Shown here: positions 3,847 to 32,600 of the stretch, piece after piece
Numbering within the stretch: position 1 is the first letter of the stretch
Layout: every line of letters begins with the position of its first letter
NCBI GenBank assembly: GCA_023151185.1
Contig: JAKLJL010000001.1
Location: 806,001-870,000 of the forward strand
Reading direction: 5' to 3'
From: Bacteroidota bacterium
GTDB taxonomy: Bacteria; Bacteroidota; JABWAT01
DNA: 64,000 nucleotides
Position numbers and translations under genes: made by a program
Notes under the pieces: model-generated
The model's input: the letters and a program-made list of their open reading frames with translations, nothing else
The model's database searches: none
What the model was told of the DNA's origin: nothing

Positions 3847-5076
3847 TCAAAGATTTTCTTCTTTTCTCTGGGCATAAATTGCCAGAGCAGTTCCGGTAAA
3901 GGCCATAAAGGTCAGCATGGAAGAACCGCCATACGAGACAAACGGAAGCGGAATGCCAATTATGGGCAGAAGGCCCATGGTCATTCCAAGATTGATGAAC
4001 AGGTGGATGGAAATAACCAGCAGCATTCCAATCAGGAAAATGGAGGCAAAACGCTGCTTGATCCGGCTTGCAAGGTTCAGCAGCCGCCACATGAGGATTG
4101 CAAAGGTGAGAATTAAAATCAGGCTTCCGATCAGGCCGTATTCTTCACTGATCACACAGAAAATAAAATCTGTCCATTGTTTAGGAAGAAACCCAAGCTG
4201 AGTCTGGGTTCCGTGCATGAATCCCTTTCCAAACCAACCACCGGAACCGATTGCCACTTCTGACTGAATCACATTGTAGCCGGCCCCTTTCGGATCAATA
4301 AACGGATCAAGCAGAATTTCCAGGCGTTTTCTCTGATGCGGCAGCAGCACATTCTGAATAAAAAAGACCGTTCCGAAACCGGCAGCAAGATTGGTTGTAA
4401 TAAAGTAAAAGGACTGGAGGAGGTTGCTTTTTCTGTAAAAAATGAACAGAATCCCCAGCAGAATAAACCCGATAAACAAATAAAAACTAAAAAATGCCAT
4501 CGCTGCCGAAAGCACCGGTGCAATAACCATGAAGGTAAACAGATCATCAAGCCCAAGCCAGAAGAGCAGGGGAACGGTCATTCCAAGGAAGACCAGTGCC
4601 GTTCCGGTATCGGGCTGCATCAGGATCAGTCCTACCGGGAAAAGTAAAAATCCCATGGCAATAACCAACTGAATGGTGGCACTCCGCCCCGATTTCTGAA
4701 CAGCCAGATAGGAGGCAACCATTAAAATGGCGGTGTACTTGGTCAGTTCGGAAGGCTGAATCCCGACCGGACCCAGATAAAGCCAGGATTTGGATCCGTA
4801 AACTTCCTTTCCGGCAATCAGAACAGCAACCAGCAGCACAATGCTGATTCCATATAGAAGAATGGCCAGGATCTGAAAGGTTTTAAGATTAATGAAATAC
4901 AATGCGGCAGCCAGCCCGATTGAAATAACCATCCAGATTACCTGGCGGTAAAAATTTTCACTCACATCCGAGTTAATCGTTGAACTGTAAATTGCCAGGG
5001 TCCCGAAGGTCATCAGGATGGCAACAGGAATAACAATAACCCAGTCAATCGGAAATTTTTCTCTTAGTCTGCTCAT
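3847..5076 (-). CDS. rodA: Rod shape-determining protein RodA (SEDS peptidoglycan glycosyltransferase)
   Basis: The 409-residue polytopic protein has about ten hydrophobic segments and SEDS-family signatures: the GVQPSE-like GIQPSELTKY loop, the QPDTGTALVF segment and the C-terminal FVSYGGSSML. RodA polymerises lipid II into glycan strands during lateral wall growth and works with a class B PBP. It is the last gene of the purN-purH-mreBCD-mrdA-rodA run and starts 12 bp after mrdA ends, which fits RodA rather than FtsW. Length is normal for RodA. Confidence 0.95.
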   Translation of the reverse strand: MSRLREKFPIDWVIVIPVAILMTFGTLAIYSSTINSDVSENFYRQVIWMVISIGLAAALYFINLKTFQILAILLYGISIVLLVAVLIAGKEVYGSKSWLYLGPVGIQPSELTKYTAILMVASYLAVQKSGRSATIQLVIAMGFLLFPVGLILMQPDTGTALVFLGMTVPLLFWLGLDDLFTFMVIAPVLSAAMAFFSFYLFIGFILLGILFIFYRKSNLLQSFYFITTNLAAGFGTVFFIQNVLLPHQRKRLEILLDPFIDPKGAGYNVIQSEVAIGSGGWFGKGFMHGTQTQLGFLPKQWTDFIFCVISEEYGLIGSLILILTFAILMWRLLNLASRIKQRFASIFLIGMLLVISIHLFINLGMTMGLLPIIGIPLPFVSYGGSSMLTFMAFTGTALAIYAQRKEENL

Positions 5077-5088
5077 AAAGTCTGCATT

Positions 5089-6948
5089 TCAGTCCGCAAT
5101 CCGGAGGGAATCGGTTTTTGAGAGTATTACTTCACCTGAACCGGACAGGACGGCAATTCCAAGCTTTTTTTCTTCTGCCAGAATAAAGTTCTTTCCGTAA
5201 AAGTGATATTTCAGCATTTGTCTGGCAACGGGCAGGGCAGCAACGGCACCAAACCCTGCATTTTCAACCATGACTGAAATGGCAATTTCCGGATTATCGA
5301 AGGGGGCAAAGCAAATAAACCAGGCATGATCCTTCCCATGCGGATTCTGGGCTGTTCCTGTTTTCCCGGCAACCTGAACATCAGGAAGCCCGGCACTGAC
5401 GGCGGTACCGGCTTCAACCACCTTTCTCATCCCTTCCCTTATGATTTTTATATTCTCACTGCTAATAGTCACTTTCTGTGACGGAACCTTGATTTCTTCA
5501 AAACTGCCGGTCTGCTTTCTGAAAATTTTCCGTACAAAATGGGGTTTGTAATGGGTTCCGCCGTTGGCAACAGTTGCAACATAAGCCGCCGACTGGATGG
5601 GTGATACACCAACTTCTCCCTGGCCGATACCCAGTGAAATCAGGAATCCTTTTGTCCATCCCCGCTTACCGTATACCCGGTCATAATACTCGGTGCTTGG
5701 TATCAGGCCATTTCTTTGTTCAAAAATATCGACTCCTGTACCTTGTCCCATCCCGAATTCAAGTCCGTAGGCGTGCAGTTTATCAAGCGGGATTTTTGTC
5801 ATGAGCTGGTAGAAAAAGCTGTTGCAGGATTTTTGAATGGCGGTCCGGATGTCAATTGGGCCGTGGACGCCGCCATGACATTTGAATCCCCGGTTTCCAA
5901 AGGTAAAAACACCCCGGCAAACCAGTTTGGTATCTTCGGTAATAATGCCTTCCTGAAGGGCAACAGCACCTACAAAAGGTTTAAAGGTTGAGCCCGGCGG
6001 GTACCGGGTCAGGGTAGCCCTGTTAAAAAGTGGCTTTGACGGATCGTTGACCATATCGCGCCACAATGTCGAATTTTTTAACCCGGAAAGCTGATTCAGA
6101 TTGAAATCAGGTTTACTGACCAGCGCCAGAATTTCACCGTTTCTCGGGTCAATGGCTACGGCACCGCCGGTTTTTCCTTCCATGAGCAATTCGGCATAGC
6201 TCTGAAGTCCGTCATCAATTGTCAGATACAGATCATCGCCGTTCACAGCCGGAATGTTATTGCCGCCGTCTTCCCAGGACCCAACAAGCTGTCCGGTGGC
6301 ATTGACCAGCCAGAACTCATGTCCTTTTACCCCTCTGAGCGGAGATTCATAAAATTTTTCGAGTCCCGATCCACCGGTAATATCACCCGGGCTGTACTCG
6401 TCGGGCTGTTTTTCAATCATTTTCTGTGTGACTTCAGACAGATACCCGAAAATATGGCTTCCCCGGGTTTGTGCCGGATAGTTCCGTTTTGTATCAACCC
6501 GGTAATTAATTCCCGAAAGCTTCCAGCCGAATTCTTCGAGTGAAACCATCTGGGCAAAAGAGATATCCCTGAAAATTACAGAGGGGACAAACGGAGAGTA
6601 CCGTCTGGCTTCCCGTATTTTTTTCTGAAGGGTCAGGGTATCTGTATCGAGGAGTTCAGAGATCAGACTGTCAGTTCCTGACCGGTAATCTTTTGGTGTA
6701 ACGGTCAGGGAGTAATAGGGATAGCTGTCGACCAGCAGAATACCATTTCTGTCGAACATATTTCCCCGGATCGGAATGACCGGAACGTCCCGTATTGCAT
6801 TTTTACGGGATTCTGCAAGCAGAGAATCCGATTTGAAAATCTGCAGATAAAACAACCGGCCGGCGAGAACACCAAAAATCAGCAGACCCGCCCAGGTAAA
6901 AACCTGAAGCCGGAAAAGGTTGCCGAACCGGTTTGGATTATAAATCAC
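5089..6948 (-). CDS. mrdA: Penicillin-binding protein 2 (elongasome transpeptidase)
   Basis: This 619-residue class B PBP has one N-terminal membrane segment (about 15-37), a pedestal domain (about 55-240) and a transpeptidase domain. The catalytic motifs are visible: PPGSTFKPF with nucleophile Ser320 and Lys323, KSCNSFF (SxN, 374-376) and AGKTGTAQN (KTG). It cross-links peptidoglycan in the periplasm together with RodA and the MreCD scaffold. The start codon is GTG at 6948-6946, three bases after the mreD stop; no nearer ATG keeps the membrane anchor. Neighbours mreD and rodA identify it as the elongation rather than division PBP. Confidence 0.95.
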   Translation of the reverse strand: MIYNPNRFGNLFRLQVFTWAGLLIFGVLAGRLFYLQIFKSDSLLAESRKNAIRDVPVIPIRGNMFDRNGILLVDSYPYYSLTVTPKDYRSGTDSLISELLDTDTLTLQKKIREARRYSPFVPSVIFRDISFAQMVSLEEFGWKLSGINYRVDTKRNYPAQTRGSHIFGYLSEVTQKMIEKQPDEYSPGDITGGSGLEKFYESPLRGVKGHEFWLVNATGQLVGSWEDGGNNIPAVNGDDLYLTIDDGLQSYAELLMEGKTGGAVAIDPRNGEILALVSKPDFNLNQLSGLKNSTLWRDMVNDPSKPLFNRATLTRYPPGSTFKPFVGAVALQEGIITEDTKLVCRGVFTFGNRGFKCHGGVHGPIDIRTAIQKSCNSFFYQLMTKIPLDKLHAYGLEFGMGQGTGVDIFEQRNGLIPSTEYYDRVYGKRGWTKGFLISLGIGQGEVGVSPIQSAAYVATVANGGTHYKPHFVRKIFRKQTGSFEEIKVPSQKVTISSENIKIIREGMRKVVEAGTAVSAGLPDVQVAGKTGTAQNPHGKDHAWFICFAPFDNPEIAISVMVENAGFGAVAALPVARQMLKYHFYGKNFILAEEKKLGIAVLSGSGEVILSKTDSLRIAD

Positions 6949-26227: not shown

Positions 26228-26710
26228 GTGTCAGAGAAATTAATTGACAAATCCTGTTTGCTTGAAAAATTCCCGGGAAAAGGGGGGTGGACTTATGCTG
26301 CACTTCCGGACATCGGGATTGGAAGATCAACTCCCTTTGGCTGGATTAAGGTAAAAGGAACCATTGACGGAATCGAAATCAGGCAATACCACCTCATGCC
26401 GATGGGAAACGGAAATCTCTTTTTGCCGGTTAAGACAGAAATCCGGAAAAAAATAAACAAACAGGCCGGAGACTGGGTTCATGTGTGTCTTCAGGCGGAT
26501 ACCGATCCTGCTGAAATTCCTGAAGAATTCACCGAATGCCTGATGATGGAACCGGACGCATTCCGGTATTTTTCTTCGCTGACCGAAAGTGAAAAACACC
26601 AGTACGTCCGGTGGGTTTATTCAGCAAAGACTGAAGAAACCCGGGCAGACCGTATCGCAGAGGTGATTGGCAGGCTGATTAAAAATAAACGGTTTTATGA
26701 CCGGCTTTAA
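26228..26710 (+). CDS. YdeI/OmdA-like protein with DUF1905 domain
   Basis: The 160-residue protein starts at GTG 26228 with GGAG at 26217-26220. The N-terminal half (about 10-95) matches the DUF1905 barrel pattern (GWIKVKGTIDG, FLPVKTEIRKKI). The C-terminal half (about 112-158) matches the OmdA/YdeI helical domain (FSSLTESEKHQYVRWVYSAKTEETRADRI). Family members have been linked to resistance to antimicrobial peptides, but the biochemical role is not known. Its TAA overlaps the TAA of the convergent gene by a shared TTAA. Confidence 0.85.
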   Translation: MSEKLIDKSCLLEKFPGKGGWTYAALPDIGIGRSTPFGWIKVKGTIDGIEIRQYHLMPMGNGNLFLPVKTEIRKKINKQAGDWVHVCLQADTDPAEIPEEFTECLMMEPDAFRYFSSLTESEKHQYVRWVYSAKTEETRADRIAEVIGRLIKNKRFYDRL

Positions 26711-27561
26711 TAGTCTGTTTCGAAGGAGTACAACCGGGTGATGTTGAATCCGATGAAAAAATGGCGCCCTGTCCAGTCGGTATTCGATCCGAGCAGAGAA
26801 CCAACCGTCGAAATGTTCTGGGTATTGCTCACAAGCAGTTGAAAAGTATGCCCTGAAATTTCCAGATTAACACCTGCTGAAAGGGTGTTCCATTTATAGG
26901 TTGCAAGTGAATTACTGTTCACCTCAGTCCGGTTGAATACCGGTATCCACTCTGCAGTCAGGGATACTTTCCTGGACAGAACATAATTGGCTGCCACGAC
27001 TGATCCGAATATGGGCTGAGCACCGGTATAGCTGTCCTTGTTTTCAAGCCGCTGGACATAAAACGGACTGATCTGGGTTGAAAATGCTTTGGTCCACTTC
27101 CTCGCAATCAGAGGCATGATCAGAAGATGGGTTTGCTCGGCACCGTCTGCAGTTGCAAAATCAGCTTCACCGTAAAGACTTAACGTAACTGGGCTTCCGT
27201 CTTCGGTTTTCTGGCTGAGCAGCCGGTACTGGGAATGGAATTCATACGTCTTCAGAGAACCGGCTCCTCCCAAACGGGAAAATCCAGCCATCCAGTCATC
27301 CAGAATCCCGTAATCAAGTCCAAAGTAAGCTGAGGCTCCCAGATCTATCCCAAACAGATCCTTCAAACCGGAGTAACTGTCCCCAAACCGGTGTCCCATT
27401 CTGAATTCAGCAGTTTTTGAGTAAAGCTGATCAACGGACCTTTGGTTGATAATATTGGTACTTCTGAACGTCCGGGTTACAGGTTCCGGCTCTGAAACAG
27501 ATGTTTCAAGTGAATCGCCGGCAGTTTGAAAAACCAGCAGCAGACCTAAAAGGGATGTCAT
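26707..27561 (-). CDS. DUF5777-like outer-membrane beta-barrel protein
   Basis: The 284-residue protein has a short signal-like N-terminus (ends about residue 15) and then alternating amphipathic strands typical of a beta-barrel, ending in aromatic residues (FNITRLYSFETDY). The NIINQRSVDQLYSKTAEFRMGHRFGD and LGASAYFGLDYGILDDW segments resemble the DUF5777 family. It is last in the cytochrome c-YceI-YceI-barrel cluster, and its ATG shares a base with the upstream YceI stop. It may be an outer-membrane pore or scaffold for that system; its function is not established. Confidence 0.75.
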   Translation of the reverse strand: MTSLLGLLLVFQTAGDSLETSVSEPEPVTRTFRSTNIINQRSVDQLYSKTAEFRMGHRFGDSYSGLKDLFGIDLGASAYFGLDYGILDDWMAGFSRLGGAGSLKTYEFHSQYRLLSQKTEDGSPVTLSLYGEADFATADGAEQTHLLIMPLIARKWTKAFSTQISPFYVQRLENKDSYTGAQPIFGSVVAANYVLSRKVSLTAEWIPVFNRTEVNSNSLATYKWNTLSAGVNLEISGHTFQLLVSNTQNISTVGSLLGSNTDWTGRHFFIGFNITRLYSFETDY

Positions 27562-28085
27562 TATTTCTCCTTGATTTCTACGTCAATTGACATGCTCAAT
27601 GTCTCTTTGACTTTATTGATTATAAATTTTTCGGGAATTTCGATATTATAATCCGTTAACCTGATCATCCAACGGGCTTTCAACCGGTTTTCTGCAATGA
27701 ATCCGGTTGCAGTAACCGGTTTGGAAACCCCGTGAACCGTGAAAACCCCAACCGCAATAACGGCACCGGGTCTTCCGTTGGGTTTGATTTTTCCGTTAAA
27801 CGTTGCAGTTGGGTAGGAATCGGTTTCCAGATAATCCTCGTGCATGTGGGTGTCTCTGAGTTTAATACCGGTTTTTAATTTTTTAAGCTCAAAAGTAAAT
27901 CTGAAGGTACTGTCTTTCAGGTTTAAGGTTCCGTCGAGTCCGGCTCCGACTCCTTCGAACTGAGAGTCAATTCCCATGGTCTCGGCAGAAGTTGTAAATT
28001 TGGCAATTCCGTTTTTGATCGAATAAATCTGGGCCTGGACGGATCCGAAGGCCAAAAATAGAACAAGGATTACCATGGATTTCAT
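27561..28085 (-). CDS. YceI-family periplasmic protein (second copy)
   Basis: The 174-residue protein has a signal peptide (about 1-18) and the YceI lipocalin-like fold, with LKTGIKLRDTHMHEDYLETDSYPTA-type residues and the VHGVSKPVT motif. YceI proteins bind long hydrophobic chains such as polyprenyls or amides in their barrel. It is clearly paralogous to the gene immediately upstream, with matching MHEDYLET and HGV.KPVT blocks and matching length. Its start overlaps the upstream stop by 4 bp. Confidence 0.9.
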   Translation of the reverse strand: MKSMVILVLFLAFGSVQAQIYSIKNGIAKFTTSAETMGIDSQFEGVGAGLDGTLNLKDSTFRFTFELKKLKTGIKLRDTHMHEDYLETDSYPTATFNGKIKPNGRPGAVIAVGVFTVHGVSKPVTATGFIAENRLKARWMIRLTDYNIEIPEKFIINKVKETLSMSIDVEIKEK

Positions 28086-28618
28086 AACGCCACCTCCTTA
28101 AGTTTTCCCTCTGCTGACATCGCTAAAACTTCACTGATTTTCCCGATCATAAATTTTTCAGGAATTTCAATGTTGAAATCCTTCAGATTTAATTTCCACT
28201 CTGCTTTCAGGAAGGTACCCGAAAGGCTTCCGGTTATGGTAACCGGTTTTTTAACCCCATGAAGCGAAAACTCCCCCTGTGCAACCAGAGTCCCCGGGTC
28301 CTTTCCTTTCACGACTTTTCCTGTGAAAGTAGCCGTGGGGTAAGTTTCCGTTTCAAGATAATCCTCATGCATATGGGAATCTCTGAGCTTGATTCCGGTT
28401 TGCAGTTTTTTCAGATCAAAGCTGAAAGAGAGTGTTCCATCCGTCAGATTCAGTTTCCCGTTCAGGCCGGAACCCGAGCCCTCAAACCGGCTGTCAACCC
28501 CAAAAGTTTCGGCACTTGTCTGAAATCTGGCCGTTCCGCCGGCCATAACATAAACCTGGCAAAAGGCTTCAGGGAATCCTGCCGCAAACAGGGCTAAAAA
28601 ACAAATCAGTCTGATCAT
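28082..28618 (-). CDS. YceI-family periplasmic protein (first copy)
   Basis: The start is taken at ATG 28618 because AAGGAG lies just before it and a signal peptide (MIRLICFLALFAAGFPEAFCQ-type) begins there; a longer frame from 28645 adds nine polar residues. The 178-residue YceI protein shares SAETFG-DSRFEG, KLRDSHMHEDYLET and the HGVKKPVT block with the next gene, so the pair arose by tandem duplication. The start overlaps the cytochrome stop as ATGA. It probably binds an isoprenoid or other lipid in the periplasm. Confidence 0.9.
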   Translation of the reverse strand: MIRLICFLALFAAGFPEAFCQVYVMAGGTARFQTSAETFGVDSRFEGSGSGLNGKLNLTDGTLSFSFDLKKLQTGIKLRDSHMHEDYLETETYPTATFTGKVVKGKDPGTLVAQGEFSLHGVKKPVTITGSLSGTFLKAEWKLNLKDFNIEIPEKFMIGKISEVLAMSAEGKLKEVAL

Positions 28619-28986
28619 TTCTCCTTCTTTCCCTGAGTGACCCATTTCGAAAAGGTTTCCAGGTCAGTTGCAGAAAGCTTGGGACCGCCATTGGGCATAA
28701 GCAATCCGTCTCCAGGATTCCGGTTTATCCGGTCACTGATTTTGGAGGAGGCTGCTGAAACCTGGGAATAGGTTGTCAGGCTTCTGCCGCCTGAAGGTGA
28801 GGTTGTTCCATGACAGGAAACACAATTTCCGTTAATAATCGGCCTGACGTCTGCTTCATAAGTGTAGGTTTTGGCAGAATCAATTGGCCCGGATCCGGTA
28901 TCTGGGCCCGAAACCTCGCTTTTACATCCGGAAAATGAACCGGCTCCAAACAGAATTCCAGCTAAAACCCATTTTCTGACACGCAT
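28615..28986 (-). CDS. c-type cytochrome lipoprotein
   Basis: The 123-residue protein has a lipoprotein signal (FSGC, Cys about 20) and one haem-binding CVSCH motif in a domain that begins TYEADVRPIINGNCVSCHG; the downstream GLLMPNGGPKLS provides a plausible Met ligand. It resembles short planctomycete-type or monohaem cytochrome c domains that carry electrons. It heads the cluster with two YceI genes and a beta-barrel, suggesting a periplasmic redox or lipid-quinone related function, which is inferred from context only. Confidence 0.88.
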   Translation of the reverse strand: MRVRKWVLAGILFGAGSFSGCKSEVSGPDTGSGPIDSAKTYTYEADVRPIINGNCVSCHGTTSPSGGRSLTTYSQVSAASSKISDRINRNPGDGLLMPNGGPKLSATDLETFSKWVTQGKKEK

Positions 28987-29091: not shown

Positions 29092-31449
29092 TTAGTAGGA
29101 GGTGACGGTGATAAAACAGGAACTTGAACGGCCTTTGTCATCGGTAACGAGGATCCGGTAACCTCCGGGATCCGGAGAAAACCAGACTGGCTTTCCGGGA
29201 GCAGATTCGGTCAGAAGCCGGTTGTTGATATACCAGTAAAGAGTCGAGACATCCGATTCCGCATAGGCCAGAAGTTGAATCCGGCTTTTCTCCTTTTTAT
29301 CGAGGAAGTAGGCAGCATGGTCAACCGGTGAGGATATGCCGGGACCGGTCTCGGTAAAAATGCGGGTACATGCCGGATTATGTGGCGGGATTTTCTGATA
29401 ACTGAGTCCCTGTTCCTCATAAAAGGCAATTAACTCAGGAGGTAAATTGGGATAAAGGTGACTAACTGTGCCCAATCCCGGGTCACAACGGGTACAATAG
29501 GATTTGGTCTCTCGCAGATCGGTCTTAACTTTTTTCAGGTGCGTGCACTTCCGGTTCGAGGAAACAGCCGGAAGAAAGTCATCCATAACCGGGTTTTCAC
29601 AGTTTTCACCCGGTGGCAAACCGGATTGCGGACAAACCAGCCTGAAATCAAGCGAAACCGGACGGGGAAACCAAACTTCAGTTGAACTGTAATCCAGCGC
29701 ATTGAACAGATCGAACAGAAGGGGCGTTGCAATTTCAGCACCTGTCAGTTCAGGGACGCCTTCGCCAGAGAAATTCCCGGTCCAGACGCCAATGGTCAGT
29801 CTGGAGTTGAACCCGATACTCCATCCATCCCGCCTGCCGTATGAAGTTCCGGTTTTCCAGGCAATTTTGGGAACATGAATCCCGCTTTGAAAAAAATCAG
29901 GAAAATCAGGGCGGGTCAGGGAAGTCAGAATTTTACCAATGGTCCAGGCAGTTCCTTCAGTCAGGAGAGGGACAGTGAAACCCGATGTATCTCCTGAATG
30001 AAATTTCAACGGACGGAATCTTCCTCCTCTGGAAAAAGCAGAATATGCCGGTACCAATTCCTCCAGCCGGACGCCGCAGCCGCCCAAAACAACGGATAAA
30101 CCCAATTTGGGGCGATCGATCCCGATTTGACGGAATCCGGCATCCGCAAGAAATGAAGTAAAAATTCCTGGGGTAATCAGGGCTGTTACACTAACCACCG
30201 GCAGGTTTAATGAACGGGCCAAGGCCTCTTCAACGGTGACCTGGCCGGTAAATTCTTCATTGAAGTTTTCAGGCATATATCCACTGAAACTCAGGGGAAC
30301 ATCCAGAAGAACTGTTTTTGGGGTGACGATTCCTTTATCCATGGCAAGGCCGTAGGCAAAAGGCTTTAACGTACTCCCCGGTGACCTGACGGCTTTCACC
30401 CCGTCGACCTGCCCCATTGAACCGATATCCTGAAAATCCGCCGATCCGGCATAGGCAATAACCCGGGCCGTCCGGTTGTCCATTACCAGAACCGCTGCCT
30501 GTGAAATTCCGAAAGACGACATCCGCCTGACATGGTTTTTTACCAGCGATTCGGTTATTAACTGACTTTCCCTGTGAATCGTGGACCTGATTACTGCACT
30601 GTCGGGAAACTGGGCTTTCAATCTTGCGGAAAGGTGAGGTGCAACCGAAGGCAGGGGTTGCCGTTTAATGTCGAGCGGTTCCCTCAAGGCAGATTCAATT
30701 TCCTCTGACTGAAATACGGATTCCTGCTTCATGCGGTTCAACCAGAGGTCCCGTTCTGCACGGACCCGTTCAGGATATTTTACCGGATTCAATTCTCCCG
30801 GGCGGTTTGGAATTACCGTCAGTGATACAACCTGAGACAGACTTAACTTTTCCGGTGAACGGCCGAAACAGAGCAGAGAAGCAGATTTAACCCCTTCTAT
30901 ATTTCCGCCATAAGGCACCAGGTTCAGATAGAGCTGCAGAATTTCATCTTTTGAATAATGGAGTTCGAGTTGAAGTGCTCTGAAAAATTCAATCAGCTTT
31001 GCAGAATAAGTTCTCCGGCGGGGTTCAAGCAATCTGACGGTCTGAAGGGTAATGGTTGATGCGCCGGCTACAATCCGGTCCTGGGTAACATTCTGCCAGG
31101 CAGCTTTAACAATCGATACCGGGTTAATTCCCGGGTGCCAGTAAAAAAATTTATCCTCTTTGAAAATCAGCGATTTTTTAAGCTGGTCAGAAATTTCGGA
31201 GAGTTCAGTTTTTACCCGCCACTTTTCATCCCGGCTCAGAAAGGAATACAGCGGAAGTCCGGTGGAATCGGTAACCAAAACGGAATAATCGGGTTCTGAA
31301 GGAAGGGGGAAACTGAAGTCAGCAAGAATAAAAAGACAGAAAAAACCAACTCCGGTAAGGAAGAATCTTGAAAGCAGTGGAAACCGGGTCGAAAGGGATT
31401 TCAGTGGTCCGGAGATGGCAGGAACCCGTAAATCAGGAAGGAAAGCCAT
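29092..31449 (-). CDS. pbpC: Penicillin-binding protein 1C (bifunctional class A PBP)
   Basis: The 785-residue protein has a membrane anchor (about 28-46), a GT51 glycosyltransferase domain with KEDKFFYWHPGINP (catalytic Glu98) and GASTITLQTVRL, and a transpeptidase domain with RSPGSTLKPF (Ser359, Lys362), RSLNLPV (SxN) and WKTGTSYGRRDGW. A C-terminal BiPBP_C beta-domain (about 690-785) completes the PBP1C layout. It polymerises and may cross-link peptidoglycan in the periplasm. PBP1C genes commonly sit beside an alpha-2-macroglobulin gene; here the neighbour is mqnC instead. Confidence 0.93.
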   Translation of the reverse strand: MAFLPDLRVPAISGPLKSLSTRFPLLSRFFLTGVGFFCLFILADFSFPLPSEPDYSVLVTDSTGLPLYSFLSRDEKWRVKTELSEISDQLKKSLIFKEDKFFYWHPGINPVSIVKAAWQNVTQDRIVAGASTITLQTVRLLEPRRRTYSAKLIEFFRALQLELHYSKDEILQLYLNLVPYGGNIEGVKSASLLCFGRSPEKLSLSQVVSLTVIPNRPGELNPVKYPERVRAERDLWLNRMKQESVFQSEEIESALREPLDIKRQPLPSVAPHLSARLKAQFPDSAVIRSTIHRESQLITESLVKNHVRRMSSFGISQAAVLVMDNRTARVIAYAGSADFQDIGSMGQVDGVKAVRSPGSTLKPFAYGLAMDKGIVTPKTVLLDVPLSFSGYMPENFNEEFTGQVTVEEALARSLNLPVVSVTALITPGIFTSFLADAGFRQIGIDRPKLGLSVVLGGCGVRLEELVPAYSAFSRGGRFRPLKFHSGDTSGFTVPLLTEGTAWTIGKILTSLTRPDFPDFFQSGIHVPKIAWKTGTSYGRRDGWSIGFNSRLTIGVWTGNFSGEGVPELTGAEIATPLLFDLFNALDYSSTEVWFPRPVSLDFRLVCPQSGLPPGENCENPVMDDFLPAVSSNRKCTHLKKVKTDLRETKSYCTRCDPGLGTVSHLYPNLPPELIAFYEEQGLSYQKIPPHNPACTRIFTETGPGISSPVDHAAYFLDKKEKSRIQLLAYAESDVSTLYWYINNRLLTESAPGKPVWFSPDPGGYRILVTDDKGRSSSCFITVTSY

Positions 31450-31499
31450 CCCCGTTCCTCAAATTTACTGAAATGGAGAATAGTAAACCGGGGCTGGCA

Positions 31500-32600
31500 T
31501 TACCAGTTTCTCTGAACCGGTGTAAAACCGGCAGTTTTAATTGCCTTGGTCATTTTTTTCAGAGTCATGTTGTACTGAAGTCCGGTTGCAGAAACAACAT
31601 TTTCCTCAATCATCAGGCTTCCGAAGTCGTTTGCACCGAATCTGAGAGAAATCTGAGCAACTTTAAGACCTTGGGTGACCCATGAAGATTGAATGGTCGG
31701 AATGTTATCGACCATTATCCTGCTGATTGCAACTGTTTTAAGGTATTCAAAAGCTGATGTTTTTTCCCGTTCGGGCAAGAGAACAAAATCGAGTTCGGTG
31801 TTTCCTCTGTGGAAGGTCCAGGGGATAAAGTTGTAAAATCCCCCGGTTTTATCCTGAAGTTCCCGGCACAGAATCATGTGGTCAACACGTTCTGCAACTG
31901 TTTCGACATGGCCGAACATCATGGTGGCGGTGGTTTTAAGGCCAAGTTTATGGGCCTCTTCCATCACGCCGAGCCACTCGGCAGATGAGGTTTTGCCCGG
32001 GGCAATGATGGCTCTGACCCGGTCAGAAAGGATTTCTGCCCCACCGCCAGGAATCGAATCAAGACCGGCCGCCTTTAACCGGCTGATTACCTCAGGAACC
32101 GAAATCCGGGATACTTTTGAAATAGTTATTATTTCTGACGGACTCAGTGCATGCAGAATGATGGAATAAGTCGACTTAATCCAGCGGAACATCTCTTCAT
32201 ACCATTCAATTTTCAATTCCGGGTTGTGTCCGCCCTGAAGCAGAATCCGGGTGCCGCCGAGATCAAGGGTTTCCTGAATTTTCTTCCCGATGGTTTCCTT
32301 GTCGAGGGTGTAGCCTTCGGCATCGCCAGGTCTGCGGTAAAAGGCGCAGAATTTGCAGTCTGCAGTACAAACGTTGGTGTAATTAATATTCCTGTCGATG
32401 ATGTAGGAGACTTCTTTTTCGGGATGATGCTTCCATCTGACGGCATCTGCCAGAAGACCCAGTGTAGTCAGGTCTTCAACATCGAAAAGGTGAATGCCTT
32501 CTTCTCTGGAAATTCTCTGGCCGGATGCAATTTTTGAGTAGACCTGCGCAACCAGGTCTGATTGTGCACGGGTATCAAGACGGGGAAACTGAATATCCAT
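31500..32600 (-). CDS. mqnC: Cyclic dehypoxanthinyl futalosine synthase
   Basis: The 366-residue radical SAM enzyme has the [4Fe-4S] motif CTADCKFCAF (Cys78, Cys82, Cys85) preceded by DRNINYTNV, and a GGTRILLQGGHNP segment typical of MqnC rather than MqnE or CofH. It cyclises dehypoxanthine futalosine in the alternative (futalosine) menaquinone pathway. It starts 9 bp after the diguanylate cyclase stop and could be co-transcribed with it and with pbpC. The mqnP prenyltransferase gene occurs about 5 kb away on the other strand. Confidence 0.93.
   Translation of the reverse strand: MDIQFPRLDTRAQSDLVAQVYSKIASGQRISREEGIHLFDVEDLTTLGLLADAVRWKHHPEKEVSYIIDRNINYTNVCTADCKFCAFYRRPGDAEGYTLDKETIGKKIQETLDLGGTRILLQGGHNPELKIEWYEEMFRWIKSTYSIILHALSPSEIITISKVSRISVPEVISRLKAAGLDSIPGGGAEILSDRVRAIIAPGKTSSAEWLGVMEEAHKLGLKTTATMMFGHVETVAERVDHMILCRELQDKTGGFYNFIPWTFHRGNTELDFVLLPEREKTSAFEYLKTVAISRIMVDNIPTIQSSWVTQGLKVAQISLRFGANDFGSLMIEENVVSATGLQYNMTLKKMTKAIKTAGFTPVQRNW

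Follow-up and report, generated by a model that had tools for sequence, protein, structure and literature searches.

A conserved cytochrome-YceI-DUF5777 gene cluster in Bacteroidota that points to electron transfer in the envelope

In Burkholderia, lcoA-bcnA-bcnB comprises a cytochrome b561 gene and two YceI genes, and LcoA with BcnA and BcnB has been proposed to recycle YceI-bound ubiquinone and to protect against lipid peroxyl radicals (PMC9113575). A YceI-like domain and c-type cytochrome domains occur together in a single protein, Cbp2D of Cellvibrio japonicus (PMC8981238). Here we describe a YceI cluster from a Bacteroidota genome, on which we found nothing in the literature searched, its conservation among related loci and the role that its composition suggests.

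The four-gene unit of the window

The window, by which we mean the whole stretch of 64,000 nucleotides that was analyzed, carries the unit on its minus strand between positions 26707 and 28986. The unit begins with a small mono-haem c-type cytochrome lipoprotein (28615..28986, 123 aa, one CVSCH motif), which is followed by YceI-a, a predicted periplasmic lipocalin-like protein with a signal peptide (28082..28618, 178 aa, Pfam YceI E=3.1e-21), by its tandem paralogue YceI-b (27561..28085, 174 aa, Pfam YceI E=3.1e-19) and by a DUF5777 predicted outer-membrane beta-barrel protein (26707..27561, 284 aa, Pfam PF19089 E=6.5e-54). The start/stop overlaps noticed in the sequence-only reading are borne out by these coordinates, which give 4 bases for cytochrome/YceI-a, 4 for YceI-a/YceI-b and 1 for YceI-b/DUF5777, and the four genes are translationally coupled. 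The ATG of YceI-a at 28618 overlaps the cytochrome stop; a longer alternative start at 28645 is also in the list of open reading frames. Directly upstream, in the same orientation, a PBP1C gene lies 105 bases from the cytochrome gene. Together with an MqnC-like gene, which we take to belong to the menaquinone futalosine pathway, it occupies 29092-32600, and the PBP1C linkage was found again within the genus. The 3' neighbour of the DUF5777 gene is convergent, encodes DUF1905 and OmdA domains and overlaps the barrel gene by 4 bases.

The cytochrome combines CVSCH, a CXnCH motif, with the export signals expected of a c-type cytochrome (signal and lipobox judged by eye); the lipobox-like FSG-C ends at residue 21, also by eye. 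Its Pfam matches, PccH at 2.3e-4 and Cytochrome_CBB3 at 4.8e-4, fall under the curated cut-offs. Among its relatives, the L139 protein scored above the PSCyt1 cut-off, and those of L130 and L040 scored under theirs.

Both YceI proteins belong to PF04264, with 76.8 and 70.3 bits versus a gathering score of 23.7. The genome of the window has four YceI genes and one DUF5777 gene, and its two canonical YceI proteins reach 168-170 bits versus the 70-77 bits of the operon copies. The operon proteins have thus diverged from canonical YceI, and quinone binding may not carry over to them. An AF2 model of YceI-a built from 6 sequences had a middling pLDDT of 72.5 and matched BcnB, TT1927b and E. coli YceI in a Foldseek search; BcnB was the best match (E=4.4e-6), but with a TM score of only 0.57-0.59 and an rmsd of 6.2.

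Conservation of the cluster across Bacteroidota

Of 296 Bacteroidota genomes sampled, 115 have DUF5777, and so do all four genomes examined from the class of the window. An association with the oxidase was considered from a comparison by eye, 0/11 genomes without COX1 versus 115/285 with COX1 having DUF5777; we do not lean on it because 8 of the 11 COX1-less genomes belong to one family (f8) in which no DUF5777 turned up. For the analysis of gene neighborhoods we used 126 of the 147 listed DUF5777 matches. They come from 102 genomes and were taken with roughly 5 kb of flanking sequence to either side, or less near a contig end. The other 21 matches were set aside manually, to save space or because the contig was short or the score weak, before their neighbours had been seen. 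Open reading frames were called for each locus and searched with HMMs built iteratively from the proteins of the window. The neighborhood was defined as 3.5 kb around DUF5777, and a cytochrome was called when a protein with a CX2-4CH motif was also matched by the cytochrome HMM.

Within this neighborhood, YceI occurs at 105 of the 126 loci, a c-type haem protein at 104 (counting the fusion at L159, described below) and both at 88, while 5 loci have neither; by family, the corresponding numbers are 20, 22 and 18 of 24. The matches are concentrated close to the barrel gene: in the same 126 loci, YceI gave 113 matches inside 3.5 kb (about 7 kb per locus) versus 2 at a distance of 3.5-5.4 kb (some 3.7 kb of sequence at each locus), and the cytochrome gave 122 versus 4. 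The linkage of YceI with DUF5777 is far above chance. The commonest gene order is cytochrome-YceI-DUF5777 (47 loci), the next DUF5777-cytochrome-YceI (17 loci). At 70 of the 126 loci YceI immediately precedes DUF5777 in the same orientation, with a gap of at most 60 bases in 69 of these 70 when reading frames are taken from the first start codon. The sequence-only reading had asked for a co-occurrence analysis and named a lack of conserved linkage in related genomes as its refutation; with YceI and a cytochrome together at 88 of 126 loci, that objection did not hold.

Other genes recur around the cluster. At 30 loci the cluster has an additional small protein resembling tRNA_anti, with an OB fold (for example L042 2796-3200), and a sigma-factor-like protein (28 loci) and another conserved protein, some 430 aa long (16 loci), often flank it, for example at L117, and are perhaps regulators. 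DOMON, ankyrin, Crp-like and ECF sigma-like proteins were also seen repeatedly, the sigma label being assigned by eye.

The two YceI proteins of the window are 55% identical (97/175). Each has an orthologue at L039 and at L040, against a single YceI in the sister genus (L041). The proposed duplication is therefore upheld, both copies being present in the 3 of 3 genus members examined and one in the sister genus. Support for the node that unites the copies is low (0.17), so that a duplication right after the divergence from L041 is probable but unproven. Tandem YceI genes have separate origins at L094 and at L086/L087. The further suggestion that two copies reflect two related hydrophobic ligands found no support, since 97 of the 105 YceI loci have a single YceI and tandems arose in two other lineages. 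The extra copy could instead serve dosage or be a specialized one.

The carrier position and the barrel

Among the cytochromes neighbouring the 126 DUF5777 genes we counted 79 CX2CH motifs, 56 of the unusual CX4CH kind and one CX3CH. Most of these small proteins have one haem motif; some combine two motif kinds in a single protein. A lipobox-like motif is found in 107 of 127 cytochrome matches. We infer that the carrier is a lipoprotein. Its placement at the outer membrane is putative, a crude sign of surface export (at least two acidic residues following the lipobox cysteine) being present in 21 of the 107 lipobox-bearing cytochromes.

The cytochrome is missing from 17 YceI loci. A small Rieske iron-sulphur protein is present at 10 of them, and a plastocyanin-like protein at 2 others (L117, L129). 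The remaining five showed no carrier (L088, L096, where the contig ends, L113, L121 and L140); the YceI matches at L088, L113, L121 and L140 are clear. A Rieske protein is found in only 1 of the 88 loci with both YceI and a cytochrome (Fisher p=7e-9, uncorrected for kinship); this locus, L048, has both carriers, so that one does not strictly shut out the other. Each of the 11 Rieske proteins passes the Pfam cut-off, and 10 of them keep the C-x-H...C-x-x-H pattern, the exception being L044.

An IQ-TREE phylogeny of DUF5777, with 56 rows chosen by hand to thin near-copies, placed the Rieske loci in three separate groups with three label changes; a FastTree of all 126 proteins gave 4 changes. A single Rieske clade was rejected (AU p=2.6e-5) even when L048 and the carrier-less L113 and L121 were admitted to it. 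This shows that haem c and Rieske carriers have been exchanged for one another on different branches of the barrel phylogeny, with a cupredoxin at 2 loci. The three changes may represent one gain and two losses, and parsimony is blind to which carrier came first. The cupredoxin HMM drifted onto T9SS tail domains (32 matches; the L056 protein in this cluster has the secretion tail only), and cupredoxins were therefore counted by Pfam match (L050, L117, L129, L123). Those of L050 and L123 stand beside a cytochrome, which leaves 2 loci in support of copper as a substitute. This slot of the operon seems open to different one-electron carriers; what these unrelated proteins share is one-electron transfer, which argues that the function of the slot is electron transfer.

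The window barrel matches PF19089 with 183.2 bits versus a gathering score of 23.1, over profile positions 1-247 of 247, and its nature as a membrane barrel is taken from the Pfam description. Pfam assigns the family no function, and the name DUF5777 is absent from the papers of the literature library searched. In 21 diverse members picked by hand, His57, Phe59, Gly71, Pro124, His238, Phe240, Gly271, Phe272 and Arg276 are invariant, and His57 and His238 are 96% conserved across all 126 proteins. Residues of this kind could be cofactor-binding, catalytic, as in outer-membrane lipid enzymes, or structural. A profile of the 21 rows gave no match to PDB sequences up to E=1, and a structure model built from three sequences only (window, L036, L037) had a pLDDT of 31.5.

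At L159 (genome G029, 4989-6254), the DUF5777 reading frame has an N-terminal extension bearing CAQAGCH, a CX4CH motif. A Pfam scan found the barrel from residue 171 and gave no match over the haem part; the iterated cytochrome HMM matched that part at E=1.9e-10, a figure that is not independent as the L159 row may itself be in the HMM. On the motif and this HMM match, L159 is likely a natural cytochrome-barrel fusion. A second cytochrome gene follows the fusion frame.

The 21 DUF5777 loci without YceI include one group with genes for 4Fe-4S, NrfD and cytochrome c proteins, some of its loci also having an EB_dh-like gene, and another with a two-haem protein. At L110, L120, L126 and L138 the YceI-less barrel gene adjoins genes for cytochrome c, 4Fe-4S and NrfD proteins, and L120 also has EB_dh-cluster and six-haem genes; these sets are possibly a respiratory complex of their own.

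Proposed role and comparison with known systems

We give a probability of about 0.6 to the reading that the cluster specifies a redox unit for single electrons, situated in or close to the outer membrane, in which the lipoprotein carrier would pass electrons to or from a quinone-like isoprenoid inside the YceI barrel and DUF5777 would be an outer-membrane docking platform or gate. In the most likely direction, the respiratory chain would reduce the carrier, the carrier would re-reduce the YceI-bound quinone, and the quinone would neutralize radicals of the envelope, those of lipids among them, comparable to the proposal for LcoA with BcnA. The sequence-only reading had left the choice between an envelope redox and a lipid-transfer system. 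An interchangeable one-electron carrier in the slot favours the redox half, a Rieske protein or cupredoxin filling the place of the cytochrome at 12 of 17 loci, and pure lipid transfer has become the less likely half.

The same genes could be read as an electron conduit, outward or inward, in which DUF5777 and the haem lipoprotein would carry electrons through the outer membrane to acceptors on the surface or outside the cell and YceI would be a quinone buffer. The haem c motif on the L159 barrel protein, the two near-invariant histidines of the barrel and the T9SS secretion tail on one plastocyanin-like and one DOMON neighbour protein agree with such a path. However, the small cytochromes mostly have a single haem motif, a multihaem conduit is not typical of these loci, and neighbours with T9SS tails occur at a minority of loci, so that we regard a conduit as unlikely. 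Trafficking of lipids or isoprenoids would make YceI an intermembrane carrier, DUF5777 an outer-membrane gate and the redox protein a mere sensor or modifier. A barrel with a periplasmic carrier is a usual layout, and YceI relatives bind polyisoprenoids (PMC9113575), but the unrelated proteins swapped in the slot have only one-electron chemistry in common, and this explanation seems to us rather improbable.

That the envelope genes are loosely associated with no shared mechanism would agree with the recurrence of several unrelated neighbours (ECF sigma-like, OB-fold tRNA_anti-like). It is very hard to reconcile with the order, the tight spacing, the co-retention in 18 of 24 families and the L159 fusion, and we give it hardly any weight. 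A bolder form of the redox reading would have an undescribed quinone-redox machine of the outer membrane, widespread in Bacteroidota, in which a DUF5777 barrel with its two near-invariant histidines binds haem or quinone and, supplied by an exchangeable haem c, Rieske or copper lipoprotein and by YceI as quinone carrier, moves electrons into or across the outer membrane; we put this forward as a doubtful possibility. Under the preferred reading of a carrier exchanging electrons with YceI, DUF5777, a barrel family without known function in 115 of 296 Bacteroidota genomes, gains a concrete and testable role. That unrelated carriers replace one another at a set place in the operon is good evidence, at the genome level, for electron transfer there.

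MtrAB-type systems are porin-cytochrome conduits, and the unit resembles them in that an outer-membrane barrel is genetically tied to c-type cytochromes. It differs in that its proteins are small, mostly with one or two haem motifs, and its barrel is of another family; any conduit activity is putative. Cbp2D differs from the unit by its carbohydrate-binding module, its context of LPMO reduction and the lack of a barrel. The closest likeness is to LcoA-BcnA(-BcnB) of Burkholderia and other Gram-negatives, where a YceI lipocalin stands in an operon with a haem redox protein (PMC9113575), and a YceI gene is likewise tied to a gene for a haem partner at 88 of the 126 DUF5777 loci. In contrast to that system, units of the window type have a small cytochrome, Rieske protein or cupredoxin in place of the transmembrane cytochrome b561, together with an outer-membrane barrel, and the YceI proteins of the window are divergent. 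No cytochrome b561 gene was found among the four window genes and the two neighbours scanned, and because it is missing the Bacteroidota unit is not a member of LcoA-BcnA, although by analogy it may work like it. The evidence points to a real and conserved cluster of the cytochrome-YceI kind with a so far undescribed electron-transfer job in the envelope, which extends the cytochrome-YceI pairing of Proteobacteria to another phylum, with other carriers.
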